Shown: piece after piece, positions 24,688 to 58,544 of the stretch
Position numbering within the stretch: the stretch's first letter is position 1
How the letters are laid out: each line of letters starts with the position of its first letter
Source: Ulota crispa
Taxonomy: Eukaryota; Streptophyta; Bryopsida; Orthotrichales; Orthotrichaceae
Reading direction: 5' to 3'
Assembly: GCA_963920765.1 (NCBI GenBank)
Contig: OY987242.1
Span: 13,230,002 to 13,294,001 of the forward strand
DNA length: 64,000 nt
Position numbers and translations under genes: made by a program
The notes under the pieces: generated by a model
The model's input: the letters and a program-made list of their open reading frames with translations, nothing else
What the model was told of the DNA's origin: nothing
The model's database searches: none

Positions 24688-24766
24688 TCAACCCTTAAAG
24701 AACAAGGGTTTCAAAACACACCAAAAAATCAACCAAAAAGTGGTTGCCTTGTCCTTAAAGGGCTAA
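24688..24766. mobile_element. 79-bp TTAA element, degenerate
   Basis: Left end TCAACCCTTAAAGAACAAGG and right end CCTTGTCCTTAAAGGGCTAA form imperfect inverted repeats flanked by decayed TTAA (TCAA and CTAA). Its length equals that of the better preserved element at 32460-32538. Confidence 0.55.
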
Positions 24767-25127
24767 ATTCTTTAGGACCTTCACAAGCTTGAAGAATTCA
24801 TTTCCTAAGCCTTCAAATATATCTAGTTGAACTTGAATGATCTTATGATTCCTTCATCTTAGAGCATTGTAAGCTTCTTTCTTTTGGTTTTCATATAAAT
24901 TAATCTGGCATCTAGAGATACAAATTGACTGATGGTTACCATGTTGGCACAAGGAGAAATCATTTTACAGTGTTCTATGAAGTCAAAGTAATATGTAAAT
25001 CCTGAATTAAGAGTGATACTGAAAATACCATTTTGACGATGTTCAAATAGTGTTTCAAACTGGAAAAATCAGTTTAAAACTAAATTTGTAAATTATTTTG
25101 AACTACAATCATTGTAAAGGAAAGAAA

Positions 25128-25282
25128 CACTACAAGAAAATGTGTCCTAATTGACATGTCCAAATTGACTAAATGTGTCCAAAATGAAAAAAAGACTGTC
25201 AAATTGAACAATTTCTATAGATTTAGCCATGTTGATTAGGAAATATTTTTGTCATTTTGGACAATTTCCCTTTTTAGTAGTG
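25128..25282. mobile_element. CACTA MITE, 155 bp
   Basis: Starts CACTACAAGAAAATGTGTCC and ends TTTCCCTTTTTAGTAGTG. AAA flanks both sides (25125-25127 and 25283-25285) as a 3-bp target duplication. Interior AAATTGAC and GTCCAAA motifs recur. Confidence 0.8.
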
Positions 25283-25657
25283 AAAATAAAGAGATTTGTC
25301 ATTCTCAAGTATGCCAAGAAATAACATTATGTTGATTTTAAAAACATTTGATGTTGTGAATCCATAACAACATTTTCAACTACAATTTTTTATATTATCA
25401 AACTAGTATAGGCACCCGTTGGTCCAATTGGGTACAAAATAGATTCAAGCCCAATTACGCAAAACATTTCCCATTCAAGAATTTTTTCTTTTTCTTTACA
25501 TCCACGTAATCTAATTTCAAACTTTACCAATGCCAATAAAATATTGGTTAAAACATTCCCTTGTAGTGAAGCAGATTTTGTTTTATACTCGTAGAGTATT
25601 TTACCTATGTTGTAAAAAGATTGCTATTATTTTCTCACATTGAAATTTATTTTTTGC

Positions 25658-26738
25658 CACTAGTAGTAAACTGTGTTAAAGTTAACATAAACTACATTAT
25701 GTTTTCATGCTTTTAACGCAGAAATTTGCATTAGAAGCATGAAAACATCATGTAGTTTATGTTCACTTTAACCCCTAAAGGACCAACTGTCCCTTTGGGG
25801 GACAAATGGATTTTGGGCATGTATCTACAGCTAATCAACTTTTTGTGATTTTTTGAAACTTTTATTGAAGGTGGGGAATTCAATGATCTACGTGGGCATC
25901 TAATTTTTCCTTCATTCCGACATTTATTGAAGAAGTTATGCATGAATTTCTGAAAAAAGGCAAGAGCCGGCAGCCCAAGAAAAATCAAAATTGCATTTAA
26001 ATTAATAATAATAATCTAATATTGGTTCTTTAGATTTATACAAATGTGGAAATTTTTAAGTCATTCAATTCTTATTGATGAGATGAAGTTATGAGAAGTT
26101 TTAGTTTGCGGGTAGGTATGGGACTCCCAAACCTCCATTATTTTTGCCTTTTGTAAAATTTGTTGCTTTCCTTTTTTGAGCTCTTTGTATATTATTATTA
26201 TTACTTTTTTTTTCCAAATTGTAGTAGACTACAATTCCTTGGTTTTCACCATTTGGATTAAAGTAATTTAGGTTTCTCAATTTTACATAAATTCTCCAAT
26301 TTTGCCTAGTGTATATGCAAATTTTATGGCCTAATGACATTGCAAGATTTTATAAAGTATAATCTACACCTCCAATTCATTTGAAAATTCTCCCACACAT
26401 ACCTAACTTGGTCTTCTATATGGAAAAAATAAACCCCAACTTTGCATAGAGCAATTTTTTTGATATAGGAGCCAGCAAAGGCTTTTGAAATTTTTGGGCA
26501 GGGAAAAAACTTTTTTTTCCACTTCAAATGTCAATACCTCACTCCTCTACTTCTAAAATGAGCTGAAATTTTTCTCACAAGTACCTCCCATAATCTAGGA
26601 CAAGATCTTACGGTTGAATTTCCAAAAAAACTTTTTTTCATACCTTTCTACTCATTCCCCCAAAAGTGGCAAGTTTCAGTGATTTTTGAAAAAAATGGGG
26701 CTTGGTCCTTTAGGAGTTAACATAATTTTCTACTAGTG
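25658..26738. mobile_element. CACTA foldback MITE interrupted by a TTAA element
   Basis: Ends CACTAGTAGTAAACTGTG and CATAATTTTCTACTAGTG. The arms pair along GTTAAAGT-AACATAAACTAC and GTTTTCATGC. A TTAA element (25768-26720) sits in the right arm; the left arm keeps the uninterrupted TTAA at the matching place. Confidence 0.75.
25768..26720 (+). mobile_element. TTAA element, long type (953 bp)
   Basis: Ends TTAACCCCTAAAGGACCAAC and TTGGTCCTTTAGGAGTTAA, with TTAA at 25768-25771 and 26717-26720. Same type as 34585-35524, 40767-41691, 56655-58544 and 57215-58155, sharing GGGCATGTA, GAAGGTGGGGAATTC, GAAGAAGTTATGCA and CTTGGTC-TCTATATGGAAAA. It has no transposase. TTAA target and CCC terminus suggest the piggyBac superfamily. 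Confidence 0.75.
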
Positions 26739-27295
26739 TATTCACGCAATTTTTTGACCCACGAAATAATTATCCACACAACTAATTTACATTTTTTGTT
26801 TTTTACCCATGTAAGGTTTTACCCATGTAGGTTTTTACCCACGCAAATTTTTGCTCACACAAGTTTTTGTCCACATAAGTTCTTTTCTATGCATGTTTTT
26901 ACACATGCTGGTTTTTACATATGTAAGTTTTTACCCATGCAACAAAAGGAGGATTGCCAATTGTATTTTCTTTATATACCCACACAAGTTTTTACACTCA
27001 CAAGTTTTTGCGCTCATAGGTTTTTACCCAGTCACGCAAAAAATCATATTCTTTTATATAGATAAAATTCATTTAACAAAAGTATGGACTGTTTTGTTTT
27101 CTTTTGCAGACATGCGTGCGTTTTGAATTTACTATATGTAGGATTTTTAAAACAAATCAAATTTGGTGACTAATGTTTGCAACTTGTTTATAATTTCAAA
27201 ATCTATATGAGATGTGTTTCTTTTACAACAATAGACAACACAAGAATTTTTGTGCAAGGCCGTTATTTATAGTGTAATTTGTTATTCTTTTGGAT

Positions 27296-28546
27296 TCTAT
27301 ATTTAATAAGTTTAGTTTTTTTAGTTGGGTAGTTGGGTGTCTATAATAGAATAAAATCTCTGTTAGTTGGGTAGTTGGGTGTTGTTCCAAGAAGACTAAG
27401 TGTCGGTTATGTGGCGGTTATTCTTATTTCTATGGTTATGTGGCGATTATAGTCGTCCTTGGGGATGGGGTATACATGGGAATAGGGGGTGGTCGTTTAG
27501 AGAAGGAGGCAAAGCATGTAAGTAGGCTTAGTACTATGGCCTCCAAGCTAGTTTTGTTCACCCTGTTTTACCCTTCAAAAAATTTGGTATTTTATAAAAT
27601 AAAATTAGCATTTTAGAATCTTGTACCATTGTTTTTTGATTCTTACTCAATCCCAATCAAGCATACCAAATTTTGAGTTTCAAAAAACCAAATTCCTATT
27701 TTTGGTGTATTTCTTTACATAATATTCATGGATTTACATGATAAATGATTAAAAAAAATTGGTAATGATTTTTTGAGATTTGATTGCATGGATGCATAGG
27801 AAACACCTAGACACACATCTTTTCTTCTAACAAGCATCTCCAAATAAATTATAATTCCTCCTCTATATAGATTTTAACATTGGAGTGATCATGATCAAAT
27901 TTTGTAAAACATATATTTATGTATTTTTAACTAGTTTTTCACAAAATAACCATATCTTTATGCTCAAAGATTCAAACCCAACTATATTAAATAAGTCTAA
28001 CAAAAAAAATCTAATTACCATGAAGAAATATCTAATTTACAAGATTTGGTTGTAATCACTTCATCAATAAAATCTACATAGAAGGAATCACAAATTTTTT
28101 TTGGAGATGCTTGTTAGAAGAAAAGATGTGTGTGTGGGTGTTTCCTATGCATCCATGCAATCAAATCTCAAAAATTCATTACCAATTTTTTTTAATCATT
28201 TATCATGTAAAACCATGAATATTATGTAAGGAAATTCACCAAAAATAGGAATTTGGTTTTTTGAAACTCAAAATTTGGTATGCTTGATTGGGATTGAGTA
28301 AGAATTAAAAAGTAATGGTACAAGATTCTAAAATGCTAATTTTATTTTACAAAATACCAAAAAATTTGAAGGGTAAAACAGGGTGAACAAAACTAGCTTG
28401 GAGGCCATAGTACAAGTAGGCTCATTGTAACGGAAAAGAGAAGAAGCTTGAAGAAGGTGAATATGAGGAAGGTCATGTTAATTTTTTTGCAAGGACCCCC
28501 TCCGTGATGGCCCTCCGCTAGAACGGCGGGTACAAGGGTCCACTAG
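27296..28546 (+). mobile_element. non-autonomous Helitron interrupted by a Mutator-like foldback
   Basis: 5' end TCTATATTTAATAAG and 3' end CCGCTAGAACGGCGG hairpin followed by TACAAGGGTCCACTAG|T. Once the 883-bp foldback is removed, only about 360 bp of Helitron sequence remain. It also has two copies of GTTAGTTGGGTAGTTGGGTG near its 5' end. Confidence 0.6.
27531..28413. mobile_element. Mutator-like foldback, 883 bp, 11-bp target duplication
   Basis: The ends mirror exactly at GTACTATGGCCTCCAAGC. The arms exceed 300 bp and stay close through TTTTGTTCACCCTGTTTTAC, AAGCATACCAAATTTTGAG and GATTTGATTGCATGGATG. Flanks AAGTAGGCTTA (27520-27530) and AAGTAGGCTCA (28414-28424) agree at 10 of 11 positions, within the 8-11 bp range of Mutator-like elements. 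The central 250 bp is unpaired and has no ORF. Confidence 0.8.
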
Positions 28547-28688
28547 TATTTCTATCATAAGCTTACAATTTGCTTTCTAGTGATATTTATAGATTGGAAC
28601 TATTGCATAGATGCAAAAGCTAAGAAAGAACCTTGAAAGAGTTGTAACAAGGATTTAAGACAAGGCATAGTATTTAGTTTTTAGGAAG

Positions 28689-29406
28689 CTAGTATAGGCA
28701 CCCGTTGTTCTAACAGGACGCAAATTAGTTTTAGGCCCAATTACGTAAATTATTTTCCTTGCAAGAAAATGATTCCTGTTTTTTAACTGCGCACTCAAAT
28801 TTCAAACTTTATTCATGTAGTAAAACATTTGTCTTTGTTTACAAAACATTCCCTTACTAGAAGAAAAATGCCAAAAAATTGCGTTCACACTTAACAAAAA
28901 ATGTGAAGTTGATTGTATTGAGTTCTCCGTTTCCAACGCAAAATTTTGTTGGAAACAAAAAACTCAACACAATCAATTTCACATTTTTAGTTAAGTAGAA
29001 CGCAATTTTTTGGCAGTTTTCTTCTATTGCAGTAAAGTGTTTTTTGTTCTATACCCATTGAGTTTTTTACCTAGCAATAAGAAGAAAATATATTATTGAA
29101 TTTACTTACACAAATTTTTTACCCAAGTAACAATTATTCACGCAAGTTTTTTTATGTTTTTGTCTACGTAGATTTTTAACTATGTAGGTTATTACCTACG
29201 CAGATAGATACGATTTTTTACCCATACATTTTTTTCTCACGCAAGTTTTTACCTACAAATTCTTTACATATACAGGTTACCTACGTAGATTTTTACATAC
29301 ATAGGTTATTACCTATGCAAATGTTTATATTATGCAAGTTATTACATGTGCAACTTTTTTACCCAAGCAAGTTTTTACCCATATGGTAAAAGGATCTCCA
29401 TATAGG
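28689..29406 (-). mobile_element. non-autonomous Helitron, interrupted
   Basis: The minus-strand 3' end is AACGGGTGCCTATACTAG, preceded by an imperfect CCTGTT...AACGGG hairpin. The interior has TTTTTACC-(T/C)ACG(C/T)A repeats as in the Helitron at 25403. A CACTA-like foldback (28853-29034) splits CATTCCCTT from GCAGTAAAG; the sister copy at 37192-37686 has these joined (CATTCCCTTGCAATAAAG). The 5' end is approximate. Confidence 0.55.
28853..29034. mobile_element. CACTA-like foldback MITE
   Basis: Arms run from ACTAGAAGAAAAATGCC to GGCAGTTTTCTTCTATTG and pair along AAAAAATTGCGTTC and TTAA--AAAAATGTGAA-TTGATTGT. The unoccupied site is seen in the sister Helitron near 37350. The terminal CACTA is decayed to TTACTA. 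Confidence 0.65.
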
Positions 29407-29427
29407 TAAATTGGATTATGGTATATA

Positions 29428-29931
29428 TCTATACTATTAAGTGGGAGTCTAACCCTCACTAACTCCATGCCCTTTTCTAGAACTTTCTAGAATTTTTTTG
29501 GTGGAAGTTGAAGTAATAAAAACTACCCTAGATACAAAACACCAAGCACCCTCCAACCGTGCTCTTTTCCAAAATCTTCTAGAACTGTTTGGTGGAAGTT
29601 GAAACAATAATGGATACCTAAAATATGGAACACCAAACACCCTCCAATCATGTGTTAGGAAAAAAACAACAAAACGCCAAACGCCCCTAGCAAAGTATAA
29701 AATAAGAGCATTATGATGAGGGCAATTACTACTTTTGGTCTCCAAAAAGAACCAAAATGATGGTGCATCAAGGCTAGATTCTAAACCAATTGTGAGATAT
29801 TGACTTTTTGTAAAATACATTAGGATTAGACTCTAGAGCAACTGATTGTGAGATGTTATTGTTTTTGTAAGGTTGAATGTTGCATTCTCTGTACACGTCC
29901 AATTCATGCAAAGCATGTGTATGTGTACCAG
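29428..29931 (+). mobile_element. non-autonomous Helitron A
   Basis: A|TCTATACTATTAAGTGGGAG at the 5' end. At the 3' end there is a perfect CATGC-AAA-GCATG hairpin, then TGTATGTGTACCAG|T. The 5' part contains two GGTGGAAGTTGAA-type repeats. Same family as 33535-33827. Confidence 0.7.
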
Positions 29932-29954
29932 TATAGAAGAAGATTATATTGTTA

Positions 29955-30517
29955 CTAGTATACAGGCACACACTTTAAGCAAGTTGGATGTGTGTGGGTA
30001 ATGCAATATTCAACTTTACAAAATATTAATATTTCACAACTGGTCTAGAATCTAATTTTGATGCATCATCATTTTGGTTCTCTTTTTAAACAAAAATTAA
30101 TAATTGCTTTCATCATAATCTACTATATAGTACTTTGTTGGGGGCACTTAGCATTTTGTTGGTTTTCTAGCACATAGTTGGATGGTGTATGGTGTTCTAA
30201 ATTTGGGTGCCTTTATTTCTTCAACTTCCACCAAAAACTTAAAGAAGATTTTGGAAAAGGACATGGTTGAAGGGCGCTTGGTGTTTTATATTTGGGGCAT
30301 CCTTTATTGCTTCTACTCACACCAAAAAGGTATAGGTCTTCAATATTTTGTTGGGGACGCTTGACGTTTTGTTAGTTTTCTAGCACATGGTTGGAGAGTG
30401 TTTGGTGTTCTGTATTTGAGAGTCCTTTATTTCTTCAACTTCCACCAAAAAATTTTAGAAGGTTTTAGAAAAGAGCCTGAAGTCAATGAGGGAAGTCCTT
30501 CCACTTAATAATAGAGA
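29955..30517 (-). mobile_element. non-autonomous Helitron B, 3' end facing Helitron A
   Basis: On the minus strand it begins A|TCTCTATTATTAAGTGG and ends GTGTGCCTGTATACTAG|T. Its interior repeats the TCTAGAA--TTTTTGGTGG and AACACCAAACAC phrases of Helitron A in opposite orientation, so A and B form a broken palindrome with 23 bp between their 3' ends. Confidence 0.65.
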
Positions 30518-31034
30518 TGTAATAAAAATTATGCTTTTGAAAAGAAATATAATTCACACCAAATAATGTATCTTTTTAATATGCTACAAATCAAGATTGT
30601 TACTACTTTTGGTGTGTAAAACAAATTGTACGAGGTATACAATGACCTCATAGTGATAAGAAAATGGTATTAGAAAAAAAATGGTCTTTTCATAATAAAA
30701 TATTTTTCTATTTATGTGAACTTAAAGAAAAAACATTAGCCACGCCTACAAAAATTCACAAGCAAAAGGGAATATTGTTTTTTAGTGTCTATTTAAAGCT
30801 AAAATTTCCAACATTATTAATAAAAAAATGTCAAGTTGTAACAGTATGGATAATTTATAATTATGGTTCTTGACAATTTTTATCAGATGCAAACTTCAAA
30901 ATAGATATAAAATAAACGTTCACTAGCACATCTGAACATTCATAGAAGTTGTAGTCATAATTTGTTTAATTTGTAGAATGCAACCACAACCCATCTTTAC
31001 ATTTTTTTCCAAGATAAGGACTAACTCTTGAGGG
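30518..31034. other. intergenic stretch, nothing recognised
   Basis: AT-rich. A short ORF at 30664-30873 has no recognisable motif. Confidence 0.45.
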
Positions 31035-31279
31035 TTAACCCTTCAAGGGCCGAGCTACTATAATACATACTATGTACGCTGCTATATAAGTTCTGGCATT
31101 TGCTATTAACAAAAAGTTTTAACTTGAGATCTTGACGACCTCACTAGAACAAAATTGATCTATATTCTAACTTCTTTGTTGATCTCAAATGTAATAAAGG
31201 TGTGGATGCACTTCAAATACAAGAAAAATACTCCATATTCTATTGGTTGCAAAGGGTTGCTCAACTATTCAAGGGTTAA
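31035..31279. mobile_element. TTAA element, 245 bp
   Basis: Ends TTAACCCTTCAAGGGCCGAG and CTCAACTATTCAAGGGTTAA. The outer CCCTT-AA is shared with the rest of the group; the interior resembles none of the other types. Confidence 0.55.
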
Positions 31280-31853: not shown

Positions 31854-31894
31854 GTAGAAGCATGTGGATTGGATCTACAAGTCAAATTGTCTAA

Positions 31895-32889
31895 TGTTTT
31901 TATTTGAAAGCCACCTCGGCCTTTATTTTCTCAAAAGACACTCGAAATTGCCATTTCTATGGCAAAGAGTAAAAAGGTTTAATTTTAATTTTTTTTGCAT
32001 ATTTAACTGTAGGATTGATTACTAGACTAGTATAAGAATTAGTAAAAAAAATTCAAAAACTTGGATTGCATAGATTGCAAGATAAAATGTAAAAACAAAC
32101 TTTTTTGCACCTTGCATGACTAGATTGTTTGACTTTGAACTTTTTTAACTTAAAGTTTTTGCACTGCAAAGTTTGGAAGTTTAAAACTTTATGGTGGAAA
32201 ATTGAGTTGAGAATCTTTCGAATTTTGTTTTTAAAAAAATACTTAATTTTCATTCATGAAAAAAAAAATGTAGAAGAAGGTATGAGATTGAACAAAAAAC
32301 TTGAACTGTTAATTACCCTTCAATGGAATTGAAACACAATAATCTCAATTGTGAGATTGTTCTTGCAAGCAAACTTCACCCTTTCTGACATTTATCTTTG
32401 AAAAAATGTTAAGCTTGCATTCAAAAATGAACTTTATAAGTTATTTTTCAAAAAGCTGCTTAACCCATTAATGACCAAGGTCCCAAAAATTCACGGGAAA
32501 TTGACCACATTCTGGTTGCTTGGTCGTTAATGGGTTAAATTGTCCAAAAATCAAAATTGTCCATAACTTTCTCATAACTAGTTCAAATGGAATGAATCAA
32601 AGCTTCCAATGTAGAAAAATATATAATCTACAAGACAAAAAATCAATTTTTTTTCAAGTTTTTGAATTTTTTTTTGTTGCCCGGTCTCCCAGTCTCCCCA
32701 AATTTGTGCCTATTTGGGCATAAAACTTTCTCTCGGGCATAGATTGGAATAAAAATTATATTCCTCAAAAGCTAATGTGTTTTTCTATCTTCAAAAAAGG
32801 ATTCAAAAATCAAAACAAAATTTGAGACCATAGGTACCTGCCCAAAATCCCATTTGTCTTTCAAAAGGAAAATGTTCCTTTACGGGTTA
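31895..32889 (+). mobile_element. degenerate long TTAA element, interrupted
   Basis: Diverged copy of 54035-54932: shared AAAAGACACTC-AAA-TGCCA, CTATGGCAAAGAGTAAAAA, GTCCATAACTTTCTCATAAC and ACCATAGGTACCT-CCCAAA. The termini have lost TTAA (right end TTCCTTTACGGGTTAG). Split by the 79-bp element at 32460-32538. Confidence 0.65.
32460..32538. mobile_element. 79-bp TTAA element with 20-bp perfect inverted repeats
   Basis: TTAACCCATTAATGACCAAG at the left and its exact reverse complement CTTGGTCGTTAATGGGTTAA save one base at the right. Inserted where the sister copy at 54.6 kb reads GATTCTTGAACTGCCC, so the pre-insertion site was CTTAA-like. Confidence 0.75.
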
Positions 32890-33285: not shown

Positions 33286-33435
33286 TTAACCCTTAAACGT
33301 CCCAAACGCCCCCTGTGGCCGTATGTCCACTGTATACTAATATGACAAAATGCATTGTTCAGCAGTTCGATTGCGAGGGTATTTTCAAAAAATAAAATCT
33401 CGTATCTCAATTCCCGAGGGCCGTGCAAGGGTTAA
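33286..33435. mobile_element. TTAA element, 150 bp
   Basis: Ends TTAACCCTTAAACGTCCC and GGGCCGTGCAAGGGTTAA. No shared interior with the others. Confidence 0.55.
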
Positions 33436-33534
33436 CATACACCACATAGTACATTTAGGCTGGATTGTCTTACCTTGGCAAAGTTACCTCATGACTTGTC
33501 CTTGGCCACCTCAAGGGACATGTGCCTCTCTTCA

Positions 33535-34320: not shown

Positions 34321-35997
34321 TTAACCCCTCAACGCCCAGGCAGCGAATTTTGAGCTGTCTCGTGACTTTGGGCAAGTCACAATAAATGGGTTTTGCATTT
34401 GTTTTTTATTTTATTTTCACACATGAAATATTTAAGGAGTAGTTTTAAAATCCAACAATTTTCATAACTTTTGATTACATGGTTCAAAAGCCATGGTATG
34501 ATTTGTTGTTTTCTTTGCTTGTCCAGGCAGCTCGGGCAACTCAAAAACTTTTTTAAAAATTACTTTTCCAATTTGTTTTGTTTTTTAACCCCTAAAGGCC
34601 TAGCTATCCCCAAGGGACAATTGAGATTTCAGGCATATACCTATATCTAATATAGTTTTTGTGATCTTTTTAAATTCTTATTAAAGGTGGGGAATTCCAA
34701 GACCTACGCGGGCATCTAATTTTTTTGTCATTATGACATTTGATGAAGAAGTTATGCAAGAATTTTTGCTGCTCGAGGGAGGGAGGGCAATCTGGGCAGC
34801 CCAAAAACTTCTTAAAAATTTGTATTTTCTAAAAATATAAATATGAAATTGGTGTTTTAGATTTTTTTATATGTGGGAAGTTTTGAATCATTCAACTTCA
34901 ATTGATGAGATGAAAGTTATGAGATGTTTCAGTTTGTGGGCATTTATGGAATCTCTACTCTAAAATAAACTTTGAAGTCCTTTATTTTTCACAAATTTCA
35001 ATATCTTGGAAAAAAAACTAAACCTAAGAAAGTAGATTGTTTATCACAACATTATAATTGTTGGGATTTTCATTTTTTCATTTTAATAATTAAATTCTTA
35101 ACAATACAGTGATTTGACTCATTCTCTACTTCTTTTTACTTACTATTTTTCCCCATGTGTTGTATAGTTCCAATTGATTTGAAAATTCTCCCACACGTAC
35201 CTAACTTGGTCTGCTACATGGAAAAAATAAACCTCAACTTTGTATAAAGTAATTTTTTTCATGTAAGTGTGGACAAAGGCTTCTATTTTTTTTGGACAGC
35301 ACAAAAAGAAACCATTTTTTTCACTTCAGATGTAAATATGTCCCTCCTCTCCATCTAGAATGACATGATTTTTTCCCACAAGTACCTCTTCTAGTCGAAG
35401 GCAAGATCCTATGGTTGGATTTGCAAAACAAACTTTATTTCCTACTTTTCTACTAAATTCCCCCCAAAGTAGTTGTTAATAGTGACTTTCATTGGAAAAA
35501 ACTGCTTGGGCCTTTAAGGGTTAAATTGGTTTTTTAGACCTACATATAGGTGGGAAGCTTTGAATCATTCAATTTTCATTAATGAGATGAAAGTTATGAG
35601 AAGTTTTAGTTTGCTGGTAGGTTGACTCCACACCTACCCACAAACCAAAACTTCTCATAACTTTCATCTCATTAATGGAAATTGAATAATTCAAAGCTTT
35701 CCACCTATATGTAAGTCTAAAAAACCAATTTAAAAAAACAAACAAACTTAAAAAGTAAATTTTAAAGAAGTTTTTGAGCTGCTCGGGCTGCCCAGACAAG
35801 CAAAGAAAACAACAAATCATATAATAACTTTTGAACCATGTAGTCAAATGCTATGAAAATTATTGGGCCTTAAAGCTACTCCTTGGGTACTTCATGTGTG
35901 AAAATAAAATAAAAAACAAATGCAAAACCCATTTGTTGTGACTTGCCCAAAATCACCAGATAGCTCAAATTACGCTGCTTGGGCCTTGAGGGGTTAA
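34321..35997. mobile_element. TTAA foldback element with a nested TTAA element
   Basis: Ends TTAACCCCTCAACGCCCAGG and CTTGGGCCTTGAGGGGTTAA. Once the nested element is removed, the two arms are each about 360 bp and meet at GTAGGTTGACTCCACACCTAC near 35630, giving an almost complete palindrome. No coding capacity. Confidence 0.8.
34585..35524 (+). mobile_element. TTAA element, long type (940 bp), inserted in a palindrome arm
   Basis: TTAACCCCTAAAGGCCTAGC to TTGGGCCTTTAAGGGTTAA. The left junction is TTTTTTAA|CCCC and the right junction GGG|TTAAATTGG; the opposite arm reads CCAATTTAAAAAAA without interruption, which gives the original TTTTTTTAAATTGG. TTAA is therefore the duplicated target. Confidence 0.85.
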
Positions 35998-36777: not shown

Positions 36778-37183
36778 AAAATTTGAGGAAAACCCCTATA
36801 TTTTGTCGTAATATGAAAAACACCCGTGTAAATTCCGAAATTGCAAAAATACCCATGTGAAACAACAACAATATCGCTGAGTTTCAGAGAATTGTATCAT
36901 CCTACAAAAGCTTGTATTGCTACCAGATTTGTCAATTGTTCAAAAGACCTTAAATAGCAAATGCCCAACTATCACATAAAAAATATGAGATAGTTGGACA
37001 CTTGTTGTTTGAGGTCTTTTGAACAATTGACAAATCTTGTGGCAATACAAACTTTTGCATGACTATACGGTTCTCTAAAACTCAATGATACTATTGCCGT
37101 TCCACAAGGGTATTTTTGTAATTTCAAAACTTACAAGGGTATTTTTCAGATTACGGCAAAATAGAGGGGTATTTCTCAAATTT
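36778..37183. mobile_element. foldback MITE, about 405 bp
   Basis: Arms of about 190 bp: AAATTTGAGGAAAACCCCTA at the left mirrors TAGAGGGGTATTTCTCAAATTT at the right. The centre pairs along CTTTTGAACAATTGACAAATC and CCAACTATCACATAAAAAAT-ATGAGATAGTTGG. Superfamily not assigned. Confidence 0.65.
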
Positions 37184-37191
37184 ATATCATA

Positions 37192-38240: not shown

Positions 38241-39480
38241 TTTTTCAATGAAGTTTGATCCAATTTTTTTCAAATATCCCTTTAAAATAAATTGTGTAAT
38301 GAAAACTAACACTTTTGGCAAGGCTCTTTCCTTTTTGTATCTACAATGGTGCGTTTTGATTGTGGTGATTTTCAATAGTATATTGTAAGAATTGCTTTTT
38401 AAAACAAAATCTGAAATATTATTGTTTGGATTGGAAAAATAGGTTTTTAAAGCTAACAGTAGGCTTGGTTTAGACCTGCGCCCAAACAAACCACAAAAAT
38501 CAGCACCTTGTCCAATATTTTATCCTCTAGGACCACTTTCACGTCATCCTGTCGTTGGGTGTGCCATCCAAGAGTGTTCTTCTATCAAACAAGTTTGGAA
38601 TCACCCTTAGAGCAGGTTCCAAAATTTCACTATCTTGTCTGTTGATGTGGACATATTGGTAGGTGACATGGCAAATTGAAGTACAAGACAAACCTTAAAT
38701 GTGAATCCTTCAATGGACAAAACTAATTTTTCAACCAATGACGTTTGAAGAAATTTCATTTTGTGGCTAGTCTAAACCTAGCCTTAGACCGCCACTTCTC
38801 AAAAAAAGAAGTTCAAAAAATTTAAACCTTTGCATTTGGCAAGATCTAAAAGTTTCTTGAACACCCAAATATGGAGCCTTAGGCATTTAGGGGTTAACCA
38901 ATGTTCTGAAGTTGGATTTTGAATTTCGCCTTGAGAAGCTCTACACTATGGCCGTTCAAGTTCAGAGGCCTTACAAATTTTGTACTAAGAGTTTGGACTT
39001 TGGACTTAACCTTTGCAAACTTCGTACTAGAGTTGGTCAAAATTTTCAAAAACAAAATTTAATTATCAAATTTTAACCTATTCTATTGACATCCTGACAA
39101 AGTTTGACTCTTCAATCCCATGGCCTCTCACCTTGGTCGACCATATCAACTTGGTCGGCCATATTGTGAAGCAACCCTAAAGCTATTTCTGCAATCTCCA
39201 TAAAGTAAAAACACGTTGGTTTTCAAAGGCTTCCTTAGGTCATTTTCTAAATTTTCTAAGGACAGAATCGTTGAACTTTTATAGAAAGTGTGAAACAAAC
39301 ATCACGATTTTTTTACCAATTTCAGATTTTGCTTGACTATATACAAAACTGCCTTCCCTAGTTGGGCAACTTCTTTAAATGCTTGCCAAGTTGTCCCAAA
39401 CGAGAATGAATTGTTAAGAAGTTGACATCATTTGAAAGAGTGGCATTCACACTGTTTCCATTTCATTTGTGGGAAGTTGT
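38241..39480. other. intergenic stretch with one TTAA-type end
   Basis: At 38880-38897, CTTAGGCATTTAGGGGTTAA is a right-hand TTAA end. Its reverse matches the left-hand end at 52772 (TTAACCCCTAAATGCCCGAG) for about 50 bp, but no partner end was found for either. Confidence 0.4.
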
Positions 39481-40389
39481 TTAACCCTTTAACAACCACA
39501 CCCATTTTCACAGAATCCACTGAAAACACATGCTGTAAGTTTATGTTTGGAATTGACTCAAATATGGACCCATTTTCAATAATCCAACTATACAAATGGG
39601 AAGTACATCTTGTTTGTTGTAAAATACCAAAAATTCAGCTAGATTTATTGTTGGAGGTGAAATATTATAATGATTGAGTGAGCCATATGCGGAAAATCTC
39701 TTGTGTTTCATTCTTGTTTAGTTTTGAATGTTGACCTTTCATGCAAGTTTTGATTGAGAAGAGCTTTACATTTCTAGAATGCAGGGTTTCCCACCTTTCC
39801 AACAAGACTACTTTCACACAAAATAGACAAAAATAGCAATCACAAGGAGAAGCTAAGTGGACAAGGGTAAAAAAACCCACTTTCTTTGCTACCCTAAACG
39901 GTTCTACAAGAAATTTAATAATTATTCTCGAAAATCCAATTGGTGAAAACAATCAACAATTGGCCTTAAATGTAGGATGACAATTTTAAAGCCAAAACAA
40001 CAACAACATTTCAATAGATTTTCAAATACTACAATTATACTACTACCATATATGAAAACAATACAAGCATATTTCTTAAGCAATTTGAATTTTTTTAGAA
40101 TTGTGCAATTGAAATTTGACATTCTTCTTGCAAACTTGAAGTATTGTGTTGTTGCTTTGATCCATCTTTGATAAAAATTGGATAAGTATTTTGAAGCCAT
40201 GCCGTATAAACACCATTATTTGCCAACTCACATACCCAATTGCATTATTAATTTTTGAATGGATGCAAGATTCTTGTAATCACATGCGTACTTCAAGATC
40301 AAATTCCAAATTATTGAGCAATTTCAACCTACAGGCCAAAAACCACTTCCAACGACCAAAATATGGTCGCGTGGTCCTTAAAGGGTTAA
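39481..40389. mobile_element. TTAA element, 909 bp
   Basis: Ends TTAACCCTTTAACAACCAC and GTGGTCCTTAAAGGGTTAA. The interior does not match the long type; it contains only short chance ORFs on both strands. Confidence 0.65.
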
Positions 40390-40534
40390 TTTCCAAAATT
40401 CTCTTATCCCCAATTTCAATCATATGGACCTTGCGATCTATCCTAATAATAGATCTGGCTTTTTACTTATAATAAATGTTTGTCTATTGGTCAAGGCTCA
40501 AGGGTCAAGGAAGTCCTCAATTGCTAAAGTCCCA

Positions 40535-40729
40535 AATTGAGAGCTCAAGTTTTGAATTGAGAGCTCAAGTTCTGAATTGACAGCTCAAGTTTTGAATTGA
40601 GAGCTCAAAGTTCTGAATTGAGAGCTCAAGTTCTAAATTGAGAGCTCAAGTTCTGAATTGAGAGCTCAAGTTCTGAATTGAGAGCTCAAGTTCTAAATTG
40701 AAAGCTCAAGTTCTGAATTGAGAGCTCAA
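40535..40729. repeat. 20-bp tandem repeat around GAGCTC, about 10 copies
   Basis: Unit GAGCTCAAGTTCTGAATTGA with T/C and G/A variants; the palindrome GAGCTC recurs every 20 bp (once 21). It lies just left of the chain of TTAA elements. Confidence 0.9.
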
Positions 40730-40766
40730 ATGTCCATAGGACACAAGACATACTAGTTGGAAGATG

Positions 40767-41691
40767 TTAACCCTCAACCCGTAAAGGACAAAGCTGCCAT
40801 TTTTGGTAACATAGAAATTTTGGGCATGTACATGTGATTGGAGATTTCCATATTTTAGATTGAAATTCTAAGAGAAGGTGGGGACGAGGAATATCTTTCA
40901 TTTGCACTAACTTTCATGACGTCTGGAACTGTGAGCAAAAAGTTATGGCCTAATATGTTGTTTTTTTGCTCGGCGGGCAGCTTGGGCTGCTTTTTAAAAA
41001 TCATTTCTTTCAAAAACTAAAATTTGAAACTGGTTCAGTGGATTTATATATATGAGGAATGCTTTTAATTATTTCATTTGGATCAATGAGATGAAAGTTA
41101 TGAAGAGTTCTTATTTGCAAGCAATTATGAATTCTCTACTCTAAAATAAATTTTGAAGTCCCTTATTTTACTCAATTTTCAATATTTTGGAAAATATATA
41201 AGATCAAAGGATATAAATTGTTCATTACATCATTATTGCTATTGGGATGACATTTTGTATTTTTGTAATTAAATTATTAACAATTTCATGTTTTAAATCA
41301 TTCTTTGCTTCTTTTTACTTCCTATTTGTTTCCCATGTGTTGTACAATTCCAAATGATTTGAAACTCTTTTGACATGCACCCTACTTAGGTGGAATATGG
41401 AATCTAGAAAAGCACCGCCCACGCTGCCTTTTACCCTTTAGATTTTCACCTTTTGAAGGTAGTTGTGTGGTTTTCCACATGACCCAAAAAAACTATTCAA
41501 ATCGTACTACTTCCAATCCACTAGGTGAAAAATTTTGATTTTTTTCCACATCTTCTAAAACTATTATACTACAAGATCCTATGGTTACATGAGCATAAAA
41601 ATGTGTTTGTTTTCAGCTTTGGTTGATGCTCTAAAAATGGCAATTTTTGAGAGTTTTTGGTGAAAACGAAGCTTGGTCCTTTAGGAGTTAA
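40767..41691 (+). mobile_element. TTAA element, long type (925 bp), first of a chain
   Basis: Left end TTAACCCTCAACCCGTAAAGGAC, slightly rearranged; right end CTTGGTCCTTTAGGAGTTAA. The interior shares GGGCATGTACATG, TCTACTCTAAAATAAA and CCCATGTGTTGTA with other long-type copies. The last TTAA (41688-41691) is also the first TTAA of the next element. Confidence 0.7.
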
Positions 41692-42046
41692 GCACTAGGC
41701 GGGTGGGTGACCATGGCTTGCCCTACTTGTAGCTTCTATAATATTTTGACAAGTGGGCACCAGTAGTATTGTCTTTAAAAGTTGCAAAAGTCAACAGTGC
41801 ATGTTGAGCTCATGAAAATTGCAATAAGGGTAACTTGGGACTTAACACCATGACTTTGAATTTTCTCATAATTTGAGTTACCAAAAAATATGAGTGTATT
41901 TGGTGAGGTTGTTTTTTGCCATCCACAATGGACCATGTGCTTGTGATCACTTTTGAAAAAAATCAAATGAAAAAAGGCTTTGATTGTCATACAAAATATT
42001 TTTTTAGGCTAGAGGACAAAAAACGTCCTTGACGTTTAGTGGTTAA
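41688..42046 (+). mobile_element. TTAA element, short type (359 bp), second of the chain
   Basis: TTAAGCACTAGGCGGGTGGG to GACGTTTAGTGGTTAA. It shares AAAGTTGCAA-AGTCAACAGTGCATG and GACTTAACACCATGAC with its neighbour. It shares a TTAA on each side with the adjoining element. Confidence 0.7.
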
Positions 42047-42411
42047 CCCCTTAAACATTGGAGTGGTCATTGTGACCATGCTGGCTACAATACTTTATAC
42101 TATTCATATCAGTGCGTAGCAATTATAATATTATTTCCTAAAGTTGCAAGAGTCAACAGTGCATGGTGCCTTCATGAAAATTGTAAGAAGGGCAGCTTGG
42201 GACCTAACACTATGTTTCTAAATCTAATCACAATTTGGGTAACCTAAAAGTATGAACACATCTGATGAGGTAATTTTTTGCCTTCCATGATGGACCATTT
42301 ATGATCACTTTTGGGAAAAAAAACAGATGAAAAACCACTTTTTTCCGAAACATAGAATCTTTTTTTAGAGCTGGAGAACGCTTTTTGTCTTACCCAATGT
42401 TTAGAGGTTAA
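42043..42411 (+). mobile_element. TTAA element, short type (369 bp), third of the chain
   Basis: TTAACCCCTTAAACATTGGAG to ACCCAATGTTTAGAGGTTAA. Contains GGTCATTGTGACC, TTGCAAGAGTCAACAGTGC and TTCCATGATGGACCA. Closely related to 56091-56459, which is inverted. Confidence 0.75.
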
Positions 42412-42656
42412 CCCTTGAGCGCCCAACCCATATTTGTGTCATGTTGGACATCATTGCAAACAATTTGACGCTGCAAGTTCAAAAACAATGTTTGAAAAAG
42501 TTAGCTTTTGATATTGCACGAGGCTTTAAGTATGCAGGTGTAAGAAAAATTTGGTAAATTTTCATTGCACGGATCAAAAGATTATAACAATCAGAAACAA
42601 CATAATGCTAAATATTGAGAGGCCATATTTTGGCCCGTGGGGTACTCATGGGTTAA
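42408..42656. mobile_element. TTAA element, 249 bp, fourth of the chain
   Basis: TTAACCCTTGAGCGCCCAACC to GGGGTACTCATGGGTTAA. The interior differs from the other types. Confidence 0.6.
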
Positions 42657-51852: not shown

Positions 51853-52771
51853 TGGTACATCTGGAGTTTTTCGGCATAATTCGCCACCGTAAGAGAAAAA
51901 TGAGGTCATTTAAGTGGGGTATCGGAATACTAAAGTTCCTGTACCTTTTTGTCTTCAGGCAGCTTGTGCTGACTTTCAGAAAACAGGAGGTTTGAGTTTT
52001 TTCTTTAGTAGATTTTGAAAGTTGGAAACGGCCCAATTGTACTTGAGAAAGTGTTAAGGATCGGCCTTGTAGAATGGAATTGACATATTAAAAAATCATG
52101 AAAACACATAAATGGATCTGTCAGTGTGTCTTCAATGTATCATGCTATCAATATTTTCATCCATTTTGGTCACCACTTCAGTGTACTTTGTATTTTGCCT
52201 TTTCTTTGCATTGAAGTTCATGATTTTACTTTGATCAATATTTTTTCTCATTTTGAGGTTAATTTTGTGCTGATGTCTTATGTATTTGCGTTGTTTTTTG
52301 GTTTGGTTGGCTTTGTGTAAGAAATTTAGTAATGCTTTGGAGATGTATGTTGATCTCACAGTGGCAATGTGATGTTCCATATCGTGACTTGTTCTATACA
52401 AATCAAAGCATAAAAAATAATGAAGAAATATGATTGTAAATATGTCATATTTCTATTAATGATTATCCAAGGGAATACATAAAAAATAGGCCCGACAAAT
52501 AGTCGTATGTCAAATATAGGCTTGACATTTGAGTAACAATAATAAATACTAAATCATTATAAACAGTTGTTTCTCAAATTTTTACCCAAAAGTTGCCATT
52601 TTTGCAGAATAAGTTTTGGGTGGCTCCAAAGATCACAATAAATTTTACACTCATCCATATTTAGTCACAAATATTTTAATACCCGTATAACTTTTTTGGA
52701 GTTATATTTTTGGCAATACCATCTGGAAGCATTGAAGTTCAAGATCCTATGGTTAAAATTAGTTTCAATGT
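51853..52771. other. 3' flank of the RS-domain gene
   Basis: Probably includes the 3' untranslated region; I could not fix a poly(A) site. AT-rich with no other gene. Confidence 0.4.
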
Positions 52772-54034
52772 TTAACCCCTAAATGCCCGAGGCACCAAAT
52801 TTTTGGTGTTCAAATATTTTTAGGAAACTTCGAAACCTTGGTGAAGGCACAAATTTGATTGTTTTAAGGTTTTTTTTTGGAGAAGTTGTGGGCTAAAGTT
52901 GCGGGCCAAAGTTGTAGGATGAAGGTAGCTTCAACATTCAATTTCAATTTCTTCCATATTTTATTCCAATTGTTTTTTGTGGAAGCTAAACTACAAGCAT
53001 ACTTTTAGTGTCATGATTAGAGTCATGACTAGTATCATGAATAGTATTGTGAGTTGTGTCACAAAGAATAAAGTGAAGATTTCTCTTGGGCACTCCCTTG
53101 CGCAATAAGGGCCCTTTTACTGAAATTTCATCATCTAACAAAATCTTAAAGTGCTTTTGAACTAATTTGGCTTGGAATGTCTTTGTTATAGAAATAATTC
53201 ATTCACTACTGAATTTTCTTTCTTTCATAATGATTTTTGGCCAATAATTGAAGAGAAACAAATTCTTTGTATTAGACAATTACATGGTGATAGTTGCATT
53301 GCAGGCTCATTTTTCAAAACTGTGGTCATGGATTTGGAAGGGTGGATATTAGTTTTGAAGTAACAACAATAAACACTAAAGTATTTTAAGTGGTTTTTTC
53401 CCAATTTTGTATCCAAAAGTTGCCAATTTGCATTATAAGTTTTAGGAAGCTCCAAAAAAATGCAAAAAATTATGTATGCACATTCAATAAAAAGTATCTT
53501 AAAATTCATGTGGCACATCCAACAATTGGATGACGCGGATATGGTCTTAGCAGATGAAAGACCAAACAAGGTGCCAGTTTTTGTGTTTTGTCCAGCCGCT
53601 AGTTTGAACCAGAACTTAGGGTATTGTTAGTTGGTTGAAATAACATGATATTCATTAGATTGGGAAAATGCAATTCCCAAGTTGTACTTCACCTGAAACC
53701 GAAAAATTCACCTTAAACTAGATTCAAAGGTATCAGATTCAATTTGAGCCACTAAGATTTTTCCCTTGCAAATTCCTCCTCTCAGGTGAGGGCATGTGTA
53801 CCAGAAAAACGTTGGAGCTTGGTTTAAAGTGATCACCTTAAACCTTCAAAAGTCCCAAAATGGACTTTTTTTCCCAATCTAATGAATATTGTGTTAATTG
53901 TAAAAAAATTGATTGAAACTTGAAACTTCATTGAAAAGAACAAGTGCATGCTTGTGAAAAGCCGGTTAAAATTGAGAAATGCTAGGTTTCAACAAGTATA
54001 ACTAAATTTTTTCTCCAAACATTGATTCAACTAT
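52772..54034. other. intergenic stretch starting with an unpaired TTAA-type end
   Basis: TTAACCCCTAAATGCCCGAG at 52772 is the left end of a TTAA-type element whose partner I could not find. The rest is AT-rich without coding signal. Confidence 0.4.
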
Positions 54035-54932
54035 TTAACCCCTAAAGGTCCATGGCTTTTTTCTTGTCAAAAGACACTCAAAACTGCCACCTCTATGGCA
54101 AAGAGTAAAAAAGTTTGAAAATTAGGCATTTTGCATATCTGACCGTAGGATCTTGTGCTAGACTACTACAAGAATGTGTCATTCAAAACTCAAGAACTTT
54201 GACCGCACAGATTGGAAGATATTTGCATTTAAAAAGTAAAAAACAACTTTTTTTGCACCTTGCTTGACTAGATTTTTTAACTTTGAACATTTTAAACTTT
54301 GCACCACAAAGTTTGGAATTCTATTTTTGCATGGTGGAAAGTTAAGTTGGGAATCTTGGGAAAAAATTTAAGAAAAGAATACTTAATTTTCATTCTTTAA
54401 AAAAACATTAGGTAGAAGAAGGTATGAGATTGAACAAAAACTTAAATTGCTAATAACCCTGCAATCCCAATGGTGAGATTGTTCTAGAAAGCAAACTTCA
54501 CCCTCTCCAACAATTAAAAAAAAAATGTTAAACCTACATTCAAAAATGAAGTTTATAAGTTATTTTTTCAAGAAGATTCTTGAACTGCCCAAAAAACAAG
54601 ATTGTCCATAACTTTCTCATAACTAGTCCAAATGGAATGAAGCAAAGCTTCAAATGTACACAAAGATATAATCTATGAGAAGAAAAAATTAATTTTTTTT
54701 TTCAAGTTTTTATAAGAAATTTTTTTTGCTGCCCCTAGTCCCCAAATTTGTGCTTATTTGGGCATAACTTTTGCTCCCTGGCATCAATCGAAATAAAAAT
54801 TAGATTCCCCAAAATCTAATGTGTTTTCTATCTTCAAAAAAAGTTTCAAAAAATTAAGACAAAAATTGAGACCATAGGTACCTACCCAAAATCCCATATG
54901 TCCCCCGTAGGGACAATGGTCCTAGGGGTTAA
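54035..54932 (+). mobile_element. TTAA element, 898 bp
   Basis: TTAACCCCTAAAGGTCCATGG to CAATGGTCCTAGGGGTTAA. Diverged full-length sister of 31895-32889; it keeps the unoccupied site corresponding to the 79-bp insertion there. Not the same interior as the 940-953 bp type. Confidence 0.75.
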
Positions 54933-55436
54933 GCCTCATGGACCTATATGACAAATTTTGTCCTTAATGTCTCAATTACAAGTTAAATCTTGTAAAAAAC
55001 CAGCATTTTCCTCTCCAAATAAAACCCTAAGCTCTATGTAACAATAAGGTCATTTGACCCACCATAGTTTAACATTTTAACAATAAGAAGGGGGGAATAC
55101 ACTTTAAAGAATTGGGTAAAATAACAATAAAAAAACCCACACAAATTGAGAGCCATGTTTAGGCAAACTGTTTGCCACATTTACTCAAGCTTTTTTTAAA
55201 CAGTATTTTCATGCCCGAACAATGGGATATGAATTTGAAATGGTAAAGTTGGGATGTGACATATTTTGAACCACCCCGTCCTTCCCAAGAAATGATGGGT
55301 TTGCAAATGGCACAGAACTGCCCAAGTGTTACTGTAGAATGCAAACATCTTTGATGCGGATTCTAATAATAAATGCTGAATCTTGTAGGCTGTCCTTGCA
55401 CACATCTTTACACGCCTGATCTCAATTGCAAAAAGA
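54933..55436. other. intergenic stretch, nothing recognised
   Basis: AT-rich, with short unsupported ORFs only. Confidence 0.45.
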
Positions 55437-55767
55437 TAAGGTAGGAGGCTCAAATTCGGAGCAGGCTCTAAAATGGAGCACCTCCTCAAATGTATTGTTT
55501 TTGTACATCTTGTTTTTCATATCTCTTCAATAATGTATAGTTCATGTACATTTGAGGAGGTGTTCCATTTTAGAGCCCTATGGTCTTTCCATTTCAAATA
55601 TTCATAACTAATTTCACAAAGTTTCAAAAAATATGAAACAACTTGGGTTAGATGCCGATTCATCTTGTCTTTCAAGAAAAGTTTACTAAAAATTGTTTCA
55701 AGGAGTTTCACCTACCCAAAATTCAGTTTCAGCCCTTAGATGCTCCATTTATGAGCCTCCTACCTTA
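55437..55767. mobile_element. MITE-like element with TAAGGTAGGAGGCTCA ends
   Basis: The 16-bp end at 55437-55452 is the exact reverse complement of 55752-55767. A second inverted pair lies inside (GGCTCTAAAATGGAGCACCTCC against GGAGGTGTTCCATTTTAGAGCC at 55470-55580). The outer TAA/TTA may be target or terminus; superfamily not assigned. Confidence 0.65.
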
Positions 55768-56090
55768 CTGGTAAATGTGCTAAGTTTTTAGATTTAAATT
55801 CTGGGAGTGTAATGAAAAGAAGAAAATAAAAATAAAAAGAAAAATAAAAGTAAAAACTTTTAGTAGAATTGGGGATGGAAAGTTGCAATCTTCACTAAAA
55901 CCCGTCCTATATAGTAAATTCTTCACCAACTCTAAAACTAATGACATATTTAAAAAATCTTGGAATGGGGACAAATTACATTAATTTTGACACAAATCTA
56001 ACTTGAAGTGTTAGTAAAAAACATCAAATTGTGGTTAGAATGCTTTTGATACCATTCGAGATCCACCATCAATCTATCACTAATATGTTC

Positions 56091-56459
56091 TTAACCCTTA
56101 AACATCGAAGAGGATGAAAAACGTCCTCCGGCTTCAAAAAAAAGTTTTGCGTGATTGAAAAAAGCTAGTTTTTATTTGATTTCTTTTCAGAAATGATCAT
56201 AAACACATGGTTTTTCATGGAAGGTAAAAAATTGCTTCATTAGATGCACTCATCTTTTCAAGGAACTCAAATTGTGAGAAAACTTAGAGACACGGTTTTA
56301 GGTCCCAAACTGCTCTTGTTGCAAATTTCATGATGTTGGCATGTACTGTTGACTTTTGCAACTTCCTAGGCACTTGCTACACCAACAAGAGCACTCAATA
56401 ATATTGTAGATCACTATACCGGGTTGGTCACGGTGACCAGTTCAAAGTTTAAGGGATAA
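56091..56459 (-). mobile_element. TTAA element, short type (369 bp), inverted
   Basis: Plus-strand ends TTAACCCTTAAACATCGAAG and TTCAAAGTTTAAGGGATAA. Reversed, it matches 42043-42411 (GGTCACCGTGACC, AAGTTGCAAAAGTCAACAGT, CCATGAAAAACCATGTG), and the total length is the same. Confidence 0.7.
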
Positions 56460-56463
56460 TATA

Positions 56464-56609
56464 CACTAGTAGAAAAACAGGTCCTAAATGACTTGGTGAC
56501 AACAACTAAACCACAACTACACAAGTCATTTTGTAGTTGTTGTACACTTGGTGCAGTGGTGGTTTAGTTGTTGTCACCTAGTCATTTAGGACCTATTTTT
56601 CTACTTGTG
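56464..56609. mobile_element. CACTA foldback MITE, 146 bp
   Basis: CACTAGTAGAAAAACAGGTCC at the left mirrors GGACCTATTTTTCTACTTGTG at the right, with near-perfect arms through AAATGACT-GGTGACAACAACTAAACCAC. Its CACTAGTAGAAAA terminus equals that of the 3-kb CACTA copies, which could have supplied the same transposase source. Confidence 0.8.
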
Positions 56610-56654
56610 AAAAGGTTTTGTTGAGTTAAGGCAATTTTGAATTTTAAAATGCCA

Positions 56655-58544
56655 TTAACCCCTAAAGGAACAAATGTCCCTTTAGGGGACAGTTGGGAAT
56701 TTGGGTATGTACCTATGGCTAAACTACTTTGTGTGGTTTTTTGAAACTTTTACAAAAGATGGGGAATTTAAAGATCTACATGGGTGTCTAATGTTATCTT
56801 CATTTTGACATCTATTGAAGAAGTTATGCTTGAAATTCTAAAAAAGGCAAAAGAGCAGGCATCCCAAAAATTGTTTTGAAAATTGCATTTTTTTAAAATA
56901 AAAATTTGAAATTGGTTCCTTAGATTTCTATGTATGTAGGAAGCTTTGAATCTTTTAGTTTTGATAGATGAAAGTTATGAGAAGTTTCAATTTGCGGGTA
57001 GGTATGGGACTCCCAAACCTCCATTCTTTTTGCCCCTTGTAAAATTTGGTGCTTTAACTTTTTGAGCTCTTTATGTATTTGTTTTTTGACTTTTTTTTTC
57101 CAAATTGTTGTAGACTATGATTCTGAGGTTTTCACTGTTTAGATCAAAAATCTAGATTTCTGAATTTACAAAAATCTACCAATCTTGCCTAGCGTATATG
57201 CAAATTTGATGGCCTTAACCCTTAAAGGACCATTGTTCCTGTGGGAGACATGTTGGATTTTGGGCATGTACCTATGGCTAAACTAATTTGTTTGATTTTT
57301 TGAAACTTTTATTGAAGGTGGAGAGTTCAAAGATCTATGTGGGCATTTAATTTTTTCTTCATTTTGACATTTGATGAATAAGTTATGCATGAATTTCTGA
57401 AAATTTAGGGAGGAGTGCCCAACTAGGTAGCCCAAAATTTTATTTACAATTTACATTTAAAAAAAATAAGATATTGAAATTGGTTCTTTAGATTTTATTG
57501 TATGTGAAAAGCTTTCAATCATTCAATTCCAATCAATGACATGAAACTTATGAGGAGTGTTTATTTGCGGGCAATTATGGATTCTCTACTCTAAAATAAA
57601 CTTTGAAGTCCTTTATTTTACTCAATTTTCAATATTTTGGAATAAAAATTAAACCAAAGGAAGTAGACTGCTTATCACAACATTAAAACCCTTGGGATTT
57701 GCATTTTTCTTTTCAATAATTAAACACTTAACAATTTAGTGTTTTGACTCATTCTCTACGTCTTTTTACTTACTATTCTTCCCCATGTATTGTATAGTTC
57801 CAATTGATTTGAAAATTCTCCCACACATACCTAACTCGATCTCCTACATGGAAAAAATAAAGTGCAATTTTGAGTAGAGCAATTTTTTTGTTATAAGAGT
57901 GGTCAAAGGCTTTTGGAATTTTTGGGCAACATGAATTTTTTTTAATTTTTTTTTTCACTTTAGATGTAAATATCTCACTCCTCTCCATCTCGAATGAGCT
58001 GATTTTTTCCCACCAATACCTCTTCTGGTCTAGGGTTAAATCTTATAATTGGATTTCCCAAAAACAAAATATAAAATTCATTTTTACTAAACCTCTTAAA
58101 AATGGCAGGTTTTAATGATTTTCATAGAAAAAGGGCTTGGTCCTTTAGGGGTTAAGGCATTGCAAGATTTTACAAAGTATGATTGACACCTCCAATTCAT
58201 TTGAGAATTCTCCCATGCTTACCTAGTTTGGTCTTCTATATGGAAAAAATAAACCTTAACTTTGCGTAGAGCAATTTTTTTTATATAGGAGTGGTCAAAG
58301 GTTTCTAAAATTTTTGGGCAGCAAGGAAAAACTTTTTTTTTTTTCACTTTAGATGTCAATATCTCACTCCTCTACCTCTAAAATGAGCTGATTTTTTCCC
58401 ACAAGTACTTGCCATAGTCTAGGGCAAGATCCTATAGTTGGTTGTCCAAAAAAACTTTCTTTCCTTCCTTTCTACTCATTCCCCCAAAAATGGCAATTTT
58501 CATTGACTTTTGCAAAAAAAATGACTTGGTCCTTTAAGGGTTAA
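56655..58544 (+). mobile_element. TTAA element, long type, with a second copy inside it
   Basis: TTAACCCCTAAAGGAACAAA to CTTGGTCCTTTAAGGGTTAA. After removing the nested 941-bp copy and one TTAA, 953 bp remain, the same length as 25768-26720. The split falls in GATGGCC|TTAA...TTAA|GGCATTGCAAG; the sister at 26326-26342 reads GGCCTAATGACATTGCAAG. Confidence 0.8.
57215..58155 (+). mobile_element. TTAA element, long type (941 bp), nested in its own relative
   Basis: TTAACCCTTAAAGGACCATTG to CTTGGTCCTTTAGGGGTTAA. Interior like 34585-35524 (TCTACTCTAAAATAAACTTTG, GTGTTTTGACTCATTCTCTAC). Confidence 0.8.

Follow-up and report, generated by a model that had tools for sequence, protein, structure and literature searches.

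The 64,000-nucleotide stretch of DNA analysed here (the window), part of contig C1 in a 275-Mb assembly, carries about 17 elements bordered by TTAA, several of them with decayed ends, and two fragments. The ends, which were read directly from the sequence, mostly continue from TTAA into a CC(C/T)T-type terminus, and our analysis concerns the probable origin of these elements as miniature transposons of the piggyBac superfamily. TTAACCC occurs 18 times and GGGTTAA 15 times in the window; these 33 sites compare with a mean of 11.4 and a maximum of 22 in 200 dinucleotide shuffles, and TTAACCCYTNAA was found 19 times, compared with 0.25 times in the shuffles. We defined pairs as TTAACC...GGTTAA, 60–2000 bp apart, whose ends agree at 11 or more of 16 bases. 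The window contains 14 such pairs (shuffle mean: 0.065; maximum: 1), built from 18 distinct ends, some of which enter more than one pair, and all 14 lie inside 24688–58544. This result agrees with an earlier annotation made from the letters alone (the sequence-only reading), which had taken the TTAA/CCC elements to be real. Its claim of at least three recurring interior types was confirmed by self-comparison of the window, in which types A, B and D recur. Uniform TTAA-CCC borders, which it had also described, hold for most ends only: 41688–42046 has no CCC at its left end, 56091–56459 has a border reading ATAA, the ends of 7726–8008 are decayed, and other ends read CTCC, CCCA, CCAC and CCTC.

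The elements lie on the forward strand unless stated otherwise. Type A is represented by an uninterrupted 953-bp copy (25768–26720), by a copy at 56655–58544 that is split (parts 56655–57218 and 58156–58544) by a nested 941-bp type A element (57215–58155), by a 940-bp copy (34585–35524) and by a diverged 925-bp copy (40767–41691). The 940-bp copy sits at a TTAA within a long-arm element (34321–35997; 268-bp inverted arms, 87% identical, with TTAA-CCCCTCAA ends), which also holds a hairpin at 35521–35733. Type B comprises an 898-bp element (54035–54932) and a decayed sister (31905–32889, left boundary approximate) that is interrupted by a 79-bp element (32460–32538). The latter has 71 bp between its TTAAs and forms a hairpin, with a strand folding score of z = −5.6. 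Type C is a single 909-bp element (39481–40389). Type D includes elements of 359 bp (41688–42046, sharing a TTAA with each neighbour), 369 bp (42043–42411) and 369 bp (56091–56459, reverse strand), as well as a decayed relative at 7726–8008, in which 7825–7959 is 75% identical to 42129–42249. Three candidates with TTAACCC/GGGTTAA borders were assessed by these borders and their end match alone, and no copies of them were sought: 42408–42656 (249 bp, 12/16 end bases), 31035–31279 (245 bp) and 33286–33435 (150 bp), the last two with a weak end match of 11/16. A further family, absent from the sequence-only reading, is represented by two single ends: an element with a left end only (52772–53514), presumably truncated on the right, and a single terminal fragment on the reverse strand (38784–38897). 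Most genomic matches of the former begin at 52772±3 bases.

At 40767–42656, four TTAA-bordered elements stand head to tail with one TTAA common to each neighbouring pair, as expected if a flanking TTAA is reused as target. At 59267–59972 and 40483–40770 there are tandem arrays, with units of 16 bp and 20 bp, the second between two TTAA elements. Ten open reading frames (ORFs) of the window gave no Pfam match at an expectation value (E) of 0.01, and neither an Rfam match at gathering score nor, with ARAGORN, a tRNA was found in the window.

Two nested insertions in the window reveal the empty target site. When the type A element at 57215–58155 was removed and the flanks of its host were joined with one TTAA, the result equalled the uninterrupted copy at 25768–26720 in length across the junction and aligned to it there with no gap; at this point, that copy has TAAT instead of TTAA. 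Removal of the 79-bp element from the type B sister likewise gave a gapless junction with one TTAA, at which the uninterrupted copy (54035–54932) reads TTGA; the one gap of this alignment, of a single base, falls within a run of T about 40 bases from the junction. The type A copy at 34585–35524 starts at a TTAA on the inner edge of the left arm of its long-arm host, and the match from the other arm reaches that TTAA. In the genome, all eight type A loci that were read, picked by full-length match, a choice that favours this outcome, and including the window copy, have TTAA on both sides, and their left 100-bp flanks are unrelated to each other.

The end motif TTAACCCNTAAA occurs 20,670 and 20,683 times on the two strands of the genome (41,353 in total), compared with 624 and 634 (1,258) for its reversed control. 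With any of the three other bases in place of the first T, the count falls to 1,155 and 1,206 (2,361; own reversed control: 665 and 744, 1,409), so that, at this position, T outnumbers the mean of the other three bases about 52-fold. The 12 sites in the window correspond to 188 per Mb and the genome has 150 per Mb; the window is thus roughly typical in end density. Taken together, the element spans cover about 10.7 kb of the window, including the three candidates and the 52772 piece. By extrapolation, scaled from this one window by end density and not counted, such elements would make up about 13% of the genome, in 5–6×10^4 copies.

In searches for DNA copies, 40 candidates were scored per query, and the resulting matches include the window copy. 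The type A query had 8038 first-look candidates, and 30 of 41 matches span positions 1–941; the other main matches are 85–87% identical. First-look candidates numbered 3747 for type B (29 of 43 matches full length), 2394 for type C (32 of 41, mostly 91–92% identical) and 3566 for type D (8 of 44, with main matches at 78–85%). The 79-bp element yielded 85 candidates and 40 matches including itself, 31 of which span positions 1–79, at 80–90% identity apart from the self-match. The expectation that genome-wide copies carry TTAA was therefore borne out for types A, B, C and the 79-bp family, in which these full-length matches include the TTAAs, and to a small extent only for type D. Eight type A copies have a median pairwise identity of 89%.

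We searched the genome for piggyBac transposases with the profile PF13843 (DDE_Tnp_1_7) and scored 116 of 528 candidates. At least 120 stretches matched, some loci giving two, with a best E of 1.3e-73. For one stop-free frame, the nearest solved structures were those of piggyBac (6x67/6x68, E 4e-20) and piggyBat (9c0f, E 6e-17), and five of five frames matched PF13843 and no other family at E 0.001. The three catalytic aspartates of the DDD triad, which we take to be the residues numbered D268, D346 and D447, are all present in 22 of 33 sampled domains, and 13 of 16 losses are changes from D to N. The tree of these 33 domains splits into several divergent clades with good support, and the domains have a median pairwise identity of 35%. 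One of these clades consists of loci L011, L025, L026, L034 and L038 (support 100/100).

Four members of this clade (L011, L025, L026 and L038) have in common a coding block that contains a DSQ motif; it is situated upstream of the transposase domain, at a distance of 1 to 4 kb or more, and is possibly a 5′ exon. Two ORFs upstream within elements gave no Pfam match at E 1. To judge from the layout of ORFs, introns may interrupt the coding frame. Two further loci, L043 (C1:1177000–1185900) and L040 (the same locus as L019; C2:34590400–34599300), have transposase stretches whose matched domain is free of stops, and showed no paired ends in the flanks examined. Each could be an active copy, a domesticated gene or, as elements can exceed the flank length examined, a long element. 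Some transposase matches form pairs on opposite strands whose scores are equal or nearly so (C7:18203169/18223004, C2:36765124/36779670 and C10:676128/785346), which suggests that the genome commonly contains long inverted duplications with near-identical arms.

We inspected 20 transposase loci with long flanks (in two sets of 17 and three), one more locus (L034) with an extended flank at the 3′ side alone, and 13 others with 1.5-kb flanks. Paired TTAA-CCC ends surround the transposase in eight of the 20 long-flank loci: L012 (5746 bp), L013 (5586 bp), L014 (5102 bp), L030 (5360 bp), L039 (5027 bp), L044 (5510 bp), L025 (8829 bp) and L038 (8255 bp). These elements of 5.0–8.8 kb have TTAA at both borders, and their two ends agree at 11–15 of 16 bases; for two random 16-mers that start with CCC, 11 matches are reached in 1.0% of draws. 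The proposal to look for a DDE_Tnp_1_7 ORF bounded by the same ends thus led to transposase-bearing copies, which encode PF13843 rather than a transposase of another superfamily. The parent copies seen carry stop codons, so that they may not be autonomous.

L025 and L038 bear both ends of type A: the left end over 180–192 bp (78–89% identity) and the right end over 556–617 bp (74%). In the 953-bp copy of the window, the matching parts are the left 179–190 bp and the right 604 bp. The right end, which matches over hundreds of bases, lies 1.6–1.9 kb past the transposase domain in all five sampled members of the clade (weakest in L011, 59–62%), and the left end was not found in L026. A right end at a like distance in five of five members makes separate later insertions of miniatures unlikely. 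Both ends of type B, as seen in the 898-bp element, match L025 and L038 in reverse orientation (61–74%). Because their terminal regions are shared with transposase-bearing elements of 8.3 and 8.8 kb, types A and B are best read as internal-deletion derivatives of a piggyBac parent. The left end of L012 matches the 52772 piece (64% over 232 bp) and the fragment ending at 38897 (72% over 108 bp), the latter with 17/18 identical end bases.

For the remaining types, we compared ends with those of the parents. When random 18-mers starting with CCC are set against the 16 parent ends, 4.7% of them reach 12/18 and 0.1% reach 14/18. The ends of the 79-bp element match parent ends at 16/18 and 14/18, and the right end of type C does so at 14/18, which is above chance; its left end (12/18) is not convincing. 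The 249-bp candidate has a left end 14/18 like that of L014. Types C, D and the 79-bp family showed no subterminal match inside any paired-end element among the loci examined. End sequence above chance therefore supports a probable assignment of type C (by its right end) and of the 79-bp family to piggyBac, and type D may be placed there by its TTAA and CCC.

Taken together, these findings indicate that the window elements are non-autonomous miniature elements (miniature inverted-repeat transposable elements, MITEs) of the piggyBac superfamily, with a probability of about 0.95. They are short, non-coding and present in high copy number, and share their ends with a transposase-bearing element in the case of types A and B only. 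The membership proposed by the sequence-only reading is thus supported by different evidence in each type: terminal DNA of the parents for A and B, ends for the right side of C and for the 79-bp family, and TTAA/CCC for D. By analogy with known piggyBac enzymes, the transposase would be produced by the larger genomic relatives and would recognize the CCC...GGG ends of a miniature in trans; the miniature would then be cut out by hairpin cleavage and seamless excision and inserted at another TTAA. The duplication of TTAA on insertion is shown by the nested empty sites.

Several observations weigh against this assignment or limit it. Most transposase matches listed contain stop codons. Twelve of the 20 long-flank loci did not show both ends (several had one end, some none), no end pair was found in the 13 loci with 1.5-kb flanks, and the end pairs of the parents were chosen from listed TTAA-CC sites amid the ends of other elements. 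The transposase loci examined included no parent of type C, type D or the 79-bp family, and the ends of three type D elements match parent ends at 8–12/18, no better than random. The median difference of 11% between type A copies implies that the type A burst is not recent, and no movement was observed.

A different source for the elements could be another superfamily that targets TTAA, such as Kolobok, which also duplicates this site, and the duplication alone fits both superfamilies. Such an origin could apply to types C, D and the 79-bp family, which have no identified parent, the ends of type D matching piggyBac parents at chance level. For types A and B it is ruled out by the long terminal sequence that they have in common with PF13843-bearing elements. 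The ends of type C (right) and of the 79-bp element resemble those of piggyBac parents at the 0.1% level, the transposase search having been made for PF13843 and not for Kolobok. Terminal inverted repeats of about 12–19 bp that start with CC(C/T)T are given as the piggyBac rule in two papers (PMC10175614, PMC2872659), and the CCC/CCCT termini fit this rule. Overall, we regard another superfamily as very unlikely.

The plant telomere unit is CCCTAAA, and the 12-mer TTAACCCCTAAA contains it, which raises the question of whether this motif arose by chance or as interstitial telomere debris. TTAACCC is absent from a telomere array, however, the motif count collapses when the first T alone is changed, and the ends are paired and bound recurring interiors. 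On these grounds we rejected both chance and telomere debris, whose probability we consider negligible. A third alternative leaves the superfamily unchanged: the miniatures may have been cross-mobilized by several piggyBac lineages instead of each family depending on its own parent. In favour of this, the genome harbours several divergent transposase lineages at once, and their ends resemble each other; types A and B and the 52772 and 38897 pieces, by contrast, share subterminal sequence with one lineage each. We consider cross-mobilization rather unlikely, yet clearly less so than an origin in another superfamily.

The window also contains repeats of other kinds. A 3012-bp inverted repeat (1639–4650 and 20556–23567; ends CTAGTAGAAAA...TTTTCTACTAG) has arms that are 99.93% identical and about 15.9 kb apart. 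At locus L082 (C4:11662000–11667200), arms 98.8% alike flank a 200-base run of N and resemble those of the window at about 92% over 2.2 kb. Possible origins of the 3012-bp repeat are a transposon with long arms, a palindrome kept alike by gene conversion or, in part, the assembly. A self-palindromic repeat of about 420 bp lies at 3303–3707, 18854–19233 and 21499–21903. Among the 40 of 2913 genome candidates that were scored, eight opposite-strand pairs with equal scores stand about 2–30 kb apart, the window pair included, and the repeat also occurs in or near several transposase elements. Two long inverted repeats without TTAA-CCC ends, at 27531–28413 (318-bp arms, 96%) and 36779–37183 (200-bp arms, 83%), are perhaps other foldback elements.

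The host was taken by the sequence-only reading to be a green plant. In agreement with this, the core of miR166 has exact matches at four places in the genome and miR1030 at one (no mismatch, one allowed), and reversed controls gave no match; miR166 is a microRNA of land plants and miR1030 one of mosses. Elements of this kind are familiar from animals and seem little described at such abundance in a plant. Among the titles and abstract openings inspected in the open-access literature, we found no description of native moss piggyBac elements; subscription papers and Repbase lay outside this scope, and we do not claim a first report. In a paper on Niphotrichum, one of the two occurrences of the term is the word 'piggybacking'.

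The superfamily, the miniature kind of element and the mechanism are already known; of interest are the host, the abundance, the links between parents and derivatives, the parents of 5–9 kb and the element with a 71-bp core. We see an even chance that piggyBac is a leading DNA-transposon system of this probable moss genome, with several old, divergent native lineages, parents of 5–9 kb and about 50,000 miniatures, including a mobile family with a 71-bp core. A large native population in a land plant would, if true, mean that the superfamily can thrive in land plants, and would provide transposases adapted to plants and very short ends for testing, as well as families whose parents are identified and in which one could study how miniatures originate and come to outnumber those parents. 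For the annotation of moss genomes, it would be a warning that piggyBac may account for a large part of the repeats. Animal-derived piggyBac is already in use for scar-free marker excision in plants (PMC4309413).

Among non-seed plants, piggyBac-labelled repeats are likewise listed for the assembly of the fern Ceratopteris richardii, with 1,230 PiggyBac entries, 122 kb and 0.00% of the assembly (PMC6890710); these entries and the 41,353 exact ends counted here are different quantities. The CMITEs of corals are TTAA-flanked piggyBac miniatures of about 100 bp, with an estimated 1,600 or so copies in Acropora millepora (PMC2872659). Compared with that description, the genome studied here has several families of 79–953 bp, two of them with an identified parent lineage, and far more ends. 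The piggyBac element of the cabbage looper and piggyBat of Myotis share with our elements the TTAA duplication, the CCC ends and a DDE_Tnp_1_7 transposase with the DDD triad, in line with the match to their structures. Animal piggyBac elements are about 2.5–3.5 kb long. In contrast to piggyBac and piggyBat, the paired-end elements found here measure 5.0–8.8 kb, some with nested repeats, and reside in a land plant, probably a moss.

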